Below, one piece after another: positions 61,083 to 64,000 of a stretch of 64,000 nucleotides of DNA (position 1 is its first letter; every line of letters begins with the position of its first letter). The stretch comes from Gammaproteobacteria bacterium. GTDB taxonomy: Bacteria; Pseudomonadota; Gammaproteobacteria; Steroidobacterales; Steroidobacteraceae. The DNA lies in the NCBI GenBank assembly GCA_004297335.1, contig SCUD01000058.1, forward strand, positions 23,092 through 87,091, written 5' to 3'. The notes beneath the pieces are model-generated. The model did no database searches. It had not been told where the DNA came from and was given only the letters and a program-made list of their open reading frames with translations. A program made the translations under genes and the position numbers.

Positions 61083-61661
61083 ATGGAACCGTTCCGCCGC
61101 CTGCGCTCTCGCACCGTGGTCCTGCCAGCCACCGACATCGATACGGACCAGATCATCCCGGCGCGCTACCTGACGACCACCGGCCGCGAGGGCCTTGGCC
61201 GCCACCTGTTCGCCGGCTGGCGCTATGCCGGCGATGGCACGCCGCTGGCGGACTTCCCGCTGAATCGGCCGCAAGCGGCCGGCTGCGCGATCCTGGTCGC
61301 CGGCCGCAACTTCGGCTGTGGCTCGTCGCGCGAACACGCCGCCTGGGCGCTGTACGACTACGGCATCCGCGTCGTCATCAGCAGCGAGATCGCCGACATC
61401 TTCCGCAGCAATGCACTGAAGAACGGCCTGCTGCCGATTCTGGTCGATGAACCGCTGCATGCCTGGCTGCTGGCGCACCCCGGTGCCGACCTCGAAATCG
61501 ATCTCGAGGGCAACCGGCTGCTGCTGCCGGATGGCCAGGCGGTGACTTTCGCGATCGAGCCATTCGCACGCTATTGCCTGCTGCAGGGCGTCGATGAGCT
61601 CGGTCACCTGCTGGCGCAACTACCGAGGATCGAGGCGTTCGAGCGGGAGACCGCTCGGTGA
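61083..61661 (+). CDS. leuD: 3-isopropylmalate dehydratase small subunit
   Basis: LeuD is the swivelling small subunit of isopropylmalate isomerase. The 192-residue protein has [66 protein letters not shown] and a C-terminal [19 protein letters not shown]. It follows leuC by 6 nt and overlaps the leuB GTG start by 4 nt. Confidence 0.98.
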
Positions 61662-62716
61662 AGGCACGGGTTGCCGTATTGCCGGGCGATGGCATCGGGC
61701 CCGAGGTCACCGGCGAGGCGCGGCGCTGTCTCGAAGCCGTCGCGCGGCGCTTCGGACACCAGTTCGTGCTCGAGGAAGCACCGGTCGGCGCAGCCGCAAT
61801 CGACGCCTGCGGCGAGCCGCTGCCGGCGGCGACGCTGGCGCTGGCCCGGGGTGCCGACGCCGTGCTGTTTGGTGCAATCGGTGACCCCCGCTTCAACGAT
61901 CCGTCCCTGCGGGTCCGGCCCGAGCAGGCGATCCTGGGCCTGCGCGCTGAACTCGGCCTCTATGCCAACCTGCGCCCGGCAGTGCCCCACCCGTCGCTGC
62001 GGCGGGCCTCGCCGCTGAAGGACGAACTGCTCGCGGGCGTCGACCTGCTGGTCGTGCGCGAACTGACCGGCGGCATCTACTTCGGCCGCCGCACCCGCGA
62101 CGCGGATTCCGCCACGGATGAGTGCCGCTACACGGTCGGCGAGATCGAGCGCATCGCGCGCGTGGCCGGACGGCTGGCCCGGGGCCGGCGGCGCCGGGTC
62201 ACCTCGGTCGACAAGGCCAATGTGCTGGAGACCTCGCGGTTGTGGCGCCAGGTCGTCACCGGGATATTCGCCGCGGAGTTCCCTGACTGCAACCTCGAGC
62301 ATCAGCTCGTGGACTCGGCAGCGATGCTGCTGCTCGCGCGGCCGGCCTACTACGATGTGCTGGTCACCGAGAACCTGTTCGGCGACATCCTGAGCGACGA
62401 GACCGCGGCGCTCGCCGGCTCGCTCGGGCTGCTGCCCTCCGCTTCGCTCGGCGACGGTCCGCGCGGACTGTACGAGCCGATCCACGGCTCCGCGCCGGAC
62501 ATCGCCAACCGCGGCATCGCCAACCCCTATGGAGCCATCGGCAGCGCGGCGCTGCTGCTGCGCCACTCGCTCGGCCTCGAGGCCGAGGCCAGCGCGCTCG
62601 AGAAGGCCATTCACCAGTCGATCGGCGGCGGCGTACTGACCGCCGACCTCAGCCCGCGCGGCACCCAGGCCGCGACCACCCGCGAAGCCGGCCAGGCAGT
62701 CCTCGACCGGCTCTGA
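61658..62716 (+). CDS. leuB: 3-isopropylmalate dehydrogenase
   Basis: LeuB oxidatively decarboxylates 3-isopropylmalate with NAD. The 352-residue protein has [36 protein letters not shown] and [34 protein letters not shown] carries the catalytic Lys, and [30 protein letters not shown] and [23 protein letters not shown] follow. A GTG start overlaps leuD (GTGA). It is the last gene of the operon; no ordinary terminator follows, only the two large hairpin elements. Confidence 0.98.
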
Positions 62717-62757: not shown

Positions 62758-62846
62758 CGGCGGGCCGGGGCGGCGGGAACATCACTCGCTCGCGCCGCCG
62801 GAACATACGCGCTCGCTCGCGACGTTCCCGCCGCCCCGGCCCGCCG
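62758..62846. repeat. large hairpin element 1 (23-bp perfect stem, 43-nt loop)
   Basis: Arms 62758-62780 and 62824-62846 are perfect reverse complements over 23 nt, rich in G and C. The 43-nt loop contains CGCTCGCGCCGCCGGAACAT and continues to GCGCTCGC, a 30-nt core (62787-62816) that recurs inverted in element 2. Inside, CTCGCTCGCG occurs twice in direct orientation. No T tract follows, so an ordinary terminator is unlikely. It is 41 nt after the leuB stop. Confidence 0.9.
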
Positions 62847-62881
62847 TCATTGCCGCGGCTCCGGCCGCAACCTCACACGGT

Positions 62882-62965
62882 GCGGGTGAGGCGGACGGGG
62901 ATCCGCGCGCGAGTGCGTAAGTTCGGGCGGCACGAGCGCGCGGGGTCCCCGTCCGCCTCGCCCGC
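62882..62965. repeat. large hairpin element 2 (23-bp stem, 38-nt loop), core inverted
   Basis: Arms 62882-62904 and 62943-62965 match over 21 of 23 positions; both mismatches would be G-U pairs in RNA. The stem sequence is unrelated to element 1. The loop core (62909-62938, GCGAGTGCGTAAGTTCGGGC and on) matches the reverse complement of the element 1 core at 26 of 30 positions. It lies 14 nt before the stop of the minus-strand metB-like gene. Confidence 0.88.
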
Positions 62966-62979
62966 GCCGCGGTGGCGCT

Positions 62980-64000
62980 TCAGGCCGCCGCGGCGCGATC
63001 GAGGCCGGCGGTGACGTCCTCGAGCAGGTCGGCGGTCGCCTCGATGCCGACCGACAGCCGCAGCAGCCCCGGCGTGATGCCCGCCGCCGCGCGTGCCTCC
63101 GGCGTCATCGCCGCATGCGTCATCGACTCCGGATGCGCGACCAGGCTCTCAACGCTGCCGAGCGACTCGGCCAGCGAGAAGAAGCGCAGGCCGTCGAGAA
63201 ACCGCCGCACCGCCGGCAACCCGCCGGCGAGCTCGAAGGACAGCATCGCCCCGAAGCCCTGCTGCTGGCGGGCTGCCAGTGCATGATCCGGGTGCGCCGC
63301 CAGGCCCGGATAGTGCACGCGCGCCACCGCCGGATGGCCCGTGATGGCCGCCGCGAGCGCTGCAGCGTTCTCCTCGTGCTGGCGCAGCCGCACATGCAGC
63401 GTACGCAGGCCGCGCAGCGCGAGCCAGGCATCGAAAGCACCACCGGTGACGCCCAGGCAATTGGCCCACCAGGCCAGGTCCTGCAGGAGTGCCTCATCGC
63501 GCGCCACGACCGCGCCGGCGACCAGGTCGCTGTGCCCGTTGACGTACTTGGTCGTCGAGTGAACGACGAAATCCGCGCCGAGCGCCAGCGGTCGCTGCCA
63601 CAGCGGCGTCATGAAGGTGTTGTCCACGGCGACCAGCGCCCCGGCGACCCGCGCCCGGGCGGCGACACTCTCGATGTCGGTGACGCGCAGCAGCGGATTG
63701 GAGGGCGTCTCGATCCAGACCAGCCGCGGGTCCCGCGCGAGTTCCCGCTCGAGCGCCGCGCGGTCGGACAGATCCACGAAGGCGACTTCGGCGCGGCCGG
63801 TCCTGGCATACGCAGCCAGCAGCCGCCAGGTGCCGCCATAGCAGTCGTGTGGCGCGACAATGAGTTCGCCGGGCCGCACCAGCGCGAGCGAGAGCGTGAC
63901 CGCGGCCATGCCAGTCGCCGTGATGACGCCGCCAGCACCGCCTTCGAGATCGGCCAGCGCGTCGCCGAGCAGGTCGCGGGTCGGGTTGCCAGAGCGTGAA
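62980..64000 (-). CDS. metB: cystathionine gamma-synthase-like PLP enzyme (cut by window edge)
   Basis: This is a trans-sulfuration enzyme that probably condenses O-acylhomoserine with cysteine. The visible 339 codons include YSRSGNPTRD-like RSGNPTRDLLGDALADLEGG at the window edge, GELIVAPHDCYGGTWRLL, VWIETPSNPLLRVTDI and VAVDNTFMTPLWQRPLALGAD. The PLP Lys lies in VVHSTTKYVNGHSDLVAG. LRFFSLAESLGSVESLVAHPESMTHAAM and LRLSVGIEATADLLED are typical C-terminal signatures. The tracked start (63909) is an internal Met. MetB versus cystathionine gamma-lyase cannot be separated with certainty here. Confidence 0.93.
   Translation of the reverse strand, partial: SRSGNPTRDLLGDALADLEGGAGGVITATGMAAVTLSLALVRPGELIVAPHDCYGGTWRLLAAYARTGRAEVAFVDLSDRAALERELARDPRLVWIETPSNPLLRVTDIESVAARARVAGALVAVDNTFMTPLWQRPLALGADFVVHSTTKYVNGHSDLVAGAVVARDEALLQDLAWWANCLGVTGGAFDAWLALRGLRTLHVRLRQHEENAAALAAAITGHPAVARVHYPGLAAHPDHALAARQQQGFGAMLSFELAGGLPAVRRFLDGLRFFSLAESLGSVESLVAHPESMTHAAMTPEARAAAGITPGLLRLSVGIEATADLLEDVTAGLDRAAAA

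Follow-up and report, generated by a model that had tools for sequence, protein, structure and literature searches.

Several kinds of described system bear on the hairpins reported here. REPs with a GTAG or CGTC tag are dispersed palindromes with stems of 5-13 bp, found mostly in convergent or unidirectional gaps near stop codons, often as inverted dimers, and in some cases as in-frame parts of DNA repair genes, DNA polymerase I included (PMC3733652). In template-switched quasipalindromes, the arms become identical and the spacers invert (PMC8604942). The usual dispersed bacterial palindromes conserve the stem; in the family to which the locus below belongs the reverse is found, the loop and internal mismatches being kept while the stem turns over, even at orthologous sites.

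Two hairpins between leuB and a metB-like gene

The gap between leuB and a convergent metB-like gene contains two hairpins (Table 1), which are one composite unit of a dispersed REP/BIME-like family. An inverted-repeat scan ranks them at the top of the 64-kb window (the whole stretch of DNA that was analysed), the loop that they share has two matches in the window against 0.01 expected by chance, and both fold far more stably than shuffled sequences on either strand (z -7 to -10). The initial annotation described a perfect 23-bp stem in element 1 and a 30-nt loop core shared in opposite orientations, both of which are recovered at the coordinates of Table 1, and its pairing of 21 of 23 positions with two G-U mismatches in element 2 agrees with the pairing tabulated here over a longer stretch.

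Table 1. Features of the leuB-metB intergenic region (positions in the window)
Feature	Position	Strand	Remarks
leuB (3-isopropylmalate dehydrogenase)	61658..62716	+	convergent left neighbour; ORF call
Element 1 (type A), 5' stem arm	62758..62780	+	perfect 23 bp
Element 1, loop region	62781..62823	.	between both arms
Element 1, 30-nt core	62787..62816	+	26/30 identical to element 2 core
Element 1, 3' stem arm	62824..62846	+	
Linker between elements 1 and 2	62847..62877	.	basis: unit alignment
Element 2 (type B), 5' stem arm	62878..62904	+	24/27 Watson-Crick plus three G·T on + strand
Element 2, 30-nt core	62909..62938	-	opposite orientation to element 1 core
Element 2, 3' stem arm	62943..62969	+	
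Cys/Met metabolism PLP enzyme (metB-like)	62980..63999	-	convergent right neighbour; continues past window edge

On the minus strand, the loop region of element 1 folds into short GC stems, a pair of tandem GA/GA internal loops and the apical loop GTATGTTCCGGCG, whereas element 2 takes the GA/GA form on the plus strand, with the apical loop GTAAGTTCGGGCG. A direct repeat of CTCGCTCGCG flanks the apical loop on both sides in type A hairpins such as element 1. No T tract is present at either element, and in the unit alignment the linker resembles that of other composite units in the source genome (G000). Relatives of leuB in congeners are up to 79% identical. Inspection by eye showed no hairpin after leuB in G001, G003 and G004, where the neighbour is not metB-like, and none between leuB and the metB-like convergent gene next downstream in G012 and G018; for a test of insertion, the locus offers only distant empty sites.

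Distribution, anatomy and covariation of the hairpin family

The initial annotation predicted that a covariance model applied to the genome and its relatives would find many intergenic copies with conserved loops and compensated stem changes, and such copies were found; none of the outcomes that it had set against this idea (two copies only, a stem kept rather than the loop, arms without covariation) occurred. The loop pattern has 23 matches in the source genome against 0 in a reversed control, and a covariance model trained on 37 copies detects about 33 family hairpins there and about 42, 20, 9, 7, 4 and 2 in six congeners; most counts given below refer to the 118 hairpins analysed in these seven congeners. 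The last bases of two source-genome contigs (C104 and C182; loci L006 and L008) are a hairpin followed by the Illumina adapter sequence AGATCGGAAGAGCG, and contigs C69, C108 and C158 also terminate in hairpins. Since contigs end in this way, short-read assemblies seem to break at these hairpins, and the copy number of the family is a lower bound.

The family occurs in an uncultured genus of the Steroidobacteraceae and in one sister genus or more, and almost all other relatives are without it. The first covariance-model search found no family hairpin in the 32 genomes that represented other genera or families, and a search of 217 genomes of the Steroidobacteraceae, with stricter filters by which weak matches were possibly lost, found one further genus (G182) with clear copies. 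A single weak match in G198, apparently in coding sequence, was taken as chance. The records that match the loop exactly are MAGs labelled Steroidobacteraceae, Gammaproteobacteria or Betaproteobacteria, ACE_PRO67 and a deep Lake Baikal MAG among them; phage records, plasmid records and viral contigs gave no family match. Rfam 15 returned no match above gathering score, only sub-threshold microRNA and snoRNA models attributable to chance, and a literature search for such a repeat found nothing specific. The hairpins are a real and apparently undescribed family, genome-wide in extent, as the suggestion of a new repeat family had anticipated.

The strand here called the GA strand folds into a long stem rich in GC (across the loop, a median of 42 bp in the 118 hairpins). 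Just below the apical loop it has tandem GA/GA internal loops, between one and three in number and spaced by at least two base pairs. The apical loop falls into conserved 13-nt classes: GTNAGTTCSGGC in 75 of the 118, and xTAAAGTTCYGGC or rarer classes in the others. At least one GA/GA 2x2 loop occurs in 103/118 hairpins, and GA/GA accounts for 156 2x2 loops against 4 for the runner-up. Sheared tandem G·A pairs in a CGAG context are stable, in RNA as well as in DNA. Of the two strands, the GA strand is more stable in 110/118, a count that leans on the energy model's GA/GA bonus, and its stem exceptions comprise 99 G·T against 44 A·C (61 against 42 without the source genome), an excess inflated by wobbles common to type A copies. 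A GAGG/GGATCC basal module is found in 23 congener copies and also in G182. Two unusual structures were observed: in G002 (L216:1959-2127), a very long and almost perfect palindrome with two facing loop cores, which folds as a single hairpin; and a near-perfect stem of about 40 bp (L208:1990-2109) with a divergent loop that contains an A-rich/T-rich run.

Both-side changes affect 18 of 20 stem pairs in the 37-copy alignment. There are 137 double-change cells, against 45 in shuffled alignments and at most 65 for slid partners, and 0/500 shuffles reach 137; the alignment includes related copies, so that the shuffle count is not a probability, but the slid controls retain relatedness. The inner stem, too, covaries: it may be GCGC, GTGC or of a longer class, while the loop is unchanged. 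At orthologous site 3, where a site-specific loop variant (GAGCGAACTC) is common to three species, G002 differs from each of the other two by five doubly compensated pairs, with two or three broken; poorly aligned orthologous sites, whose counts are dominated by misalignment, were left out. The stems had been called freely varying, which describes them between loop types and between species, but within the source genome same-slot stems are similar among copies.

Genomic context and exchange of parts

Context was counted at 80 loci with a purpose-written gene caller. Gaps with a hairpin are convergent in 32 of 68 cases (tandem 33, divergent 3), against 18 of 219 for gaps without one (tandem 174, divergent 27), an odds ratio of 9.9 (p 1e-11); taken by itself, the depletion in divergent gaps does not reach significance (p 0.07). 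The median distance from stop codon to modelled core is 31 nt. Close pairs consist of a TC form followed by a GA form on the plus strand in 35/36 cases, and the composite unit of the source genome is a TC-form hairpin, a short linker and a GA-form hairpin. Among single hairpins in tandem contexts, polA copies excluded, the GA strand is sense in 10 and antisense in 5, which is not significant.

The only coding copies found are those in polA, the rest being intergenic. Four species (G001, G002, G004 and G006; loci L172, L183, L203 and L209) have a hairpin in frame at the same codons of this gene, where the encoded linker joins the 5'-3' exonuclease domain of DNA polymerase I to the 3'-5' one. 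REPs are known inside this gene in other bacteria (PMC3733652). The polA gene of the source genome has no hairpin, and linker lengths are too variable between species for a clean insertion to be shown. In G002 the loop is reversed relative to the other three species and the encoded peptide differs; thus, a fixed orientation is not essential there.

About 12 orthologous sites are common to two to four species. In the source genome, loop types are swapped between the slots of composite units, and three units (L219, L229 and L230) contain mosaic hairpins in which each arm comes from a different stem variant, as if recombined in the loop; the units have stem and linker sequence in common, as after recent amplification. 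No target-site duplication, such as marks the ends of MITEs, was seen by eye in 13 aligned units, an alignment of occupied sites only.

Explanations and comparison with known systems

The reading that we prefer, with a probability of about 0.5, is that of a dispersed REP/BIME-like hairpin family that acts as folded RNA at 3' ends and whose arms are kept complementary partly by template switching. The strand that works in folded form would be the GA strand, and most likely as RNA; this choice relies on the position behind genes, the dyad arrangement and the greater number of G·T than of A·C exceptions. Whichever neighbouring gene it starts from, a transcript would meet the TC-form hairpin first and the GA-form hairpin second, so that the unit may act at the 3' ends of both convergent genes, as a barrier or a stabiliser. 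Arm complementarity may arise from template switching at replication together with selection against unpaired stems, and parts may be exchanged among copies by recombination in the shared loop.

The initial annotation took the conserved loop and varying, self-complementary stems as a mark of selection on the fold. Covarying arms and an inverting loop are also made by template switching, so this pattern alone is no proof of selection on structure; a folded functional element is better supported by the retained tandem GA/GA mismatches and by the location behind genes. Possible, at less than even odds, is a selfish or neutral palindromic repeat that spreads by some mobility route, the arms of which are complementary only through template switching by DNA polymerase, which also flips loops, and the position of which behind genes reflects tolerated insertions. 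Arm homogenisation and spacer inversion by this route are documented (PMC8604942), and the flipped polA loop of G002, the mosaic arms and the stem and linker sequence common to units of the source genome are in keeping with it. Template switching should, however, also erase the GA/GA mismatches, of which 103 of the 118 hairpins retain at least one; the covariation of the inner stem around a constant loop and the persistence of many sites across species also count against purely neutral upkeep. Structural selection and neutral arm homogenisation probably both act.

Recognition of a folded strand is supported by the retention of loop and mismatches while stems are exchanged. The recognised part may be the apical loop with the tandem GA/GA; a putative dedicated protein would read these, in RNA or in single-stranded DNA, and accept a stem of nearly any sequence. 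We regard this proposal as tentative and somewhat doubtful. Unlikely is the related idea that loop and GA/GA are the binding site of a transposase of the RAYT/Y1 type, which acts on single-stranded hairpins, with the unit as a REPIN-like passenger. Y1_Tnp genes occur in G000 (two), G002 (two), G003 and G004 and were not detected in the hairpin-poor G001, G005 and G006, which are incomplete genomes, and paired inverted hairpins recall REP dimers and REPINs. Yet no RAYT gene flanked by the family repeat was found around the Y1_Tnp loci of G000, G002, G003 and G004 by an R1 search and an inverted-repeat scan (about 1.5 kb per side at two loci), Y1 genes are also present in genera without hairpins, and REP tags are not enriched at the feet of the 118 hairpins (GTAG 7 against 3.6 expected, CTAC 0 against 4.4, CGTC 3 against 14.1, GACG 13 against 14.7).

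Very improbable is a double-stranded site for a nucleoid protein, gyrase or a replication-termination protein. E. coli BIMEs bind gyrase and IHF, and the direct repeat in type A could be such a site, but types B and C replace the CTCGCTCGCG repeat and keep pairing and loop; thus, duplex sequence is not conserved outside the 13-nt loop. An ordinary intrinsic terminator pair, for which the location between convergent genes and close to stop codons would be apt, is barely credible: none of the 118 hairpins has four consecutive T within 10 nt of a foot, on either strand, which excludes a T-tract terminator, as the initial annotation had held, and stems of about 42 bp with a conserved loop are atypical of terminators.

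If recognition of loop and GA/GA is true, the family would not be a REP variant but a bacterial 3'-end or mobility element of a new class. The family is also a natural data set for separating selection on the fold from arm homogenisation, and a lead towards a protein that would read hairpin tips.

Quasipalindromes of the template-switched kind (PMC8604942) are isolated and short, whereas the family hairpins have a common loop and fixed internal mismatches. Rickettsia palindromic elements are likewise larger palindromes able to sit in frame in genes; the family differs in that the coding copies found are confined to polA, and it is set apart from these elements by description. The composite units resemble BIMEs and REPINs in their two inverted hairpins (35/36 pairs), recurrent linker and modular exchange of parts, but the hairpin is about 90 nt long with tandem GA/GA, is not built from REPs, and no RAYT was found beside its copies. 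As in REPs, the hairpins are intergenic, behind genes and in inverted dimers, with in-frame copies in polA; unlike REPs, they have stems of about 42 bp rather than 5-13 bp and conserve the loop, not the stem. The view that they are not simple REPs thus holds for the GTAG/CGTC REP structure, which is absent, but not for behaviour, which is REP-like: in tag, stem length and transposase association the family departs from REPs, yet it works like REP/BIME repeats.
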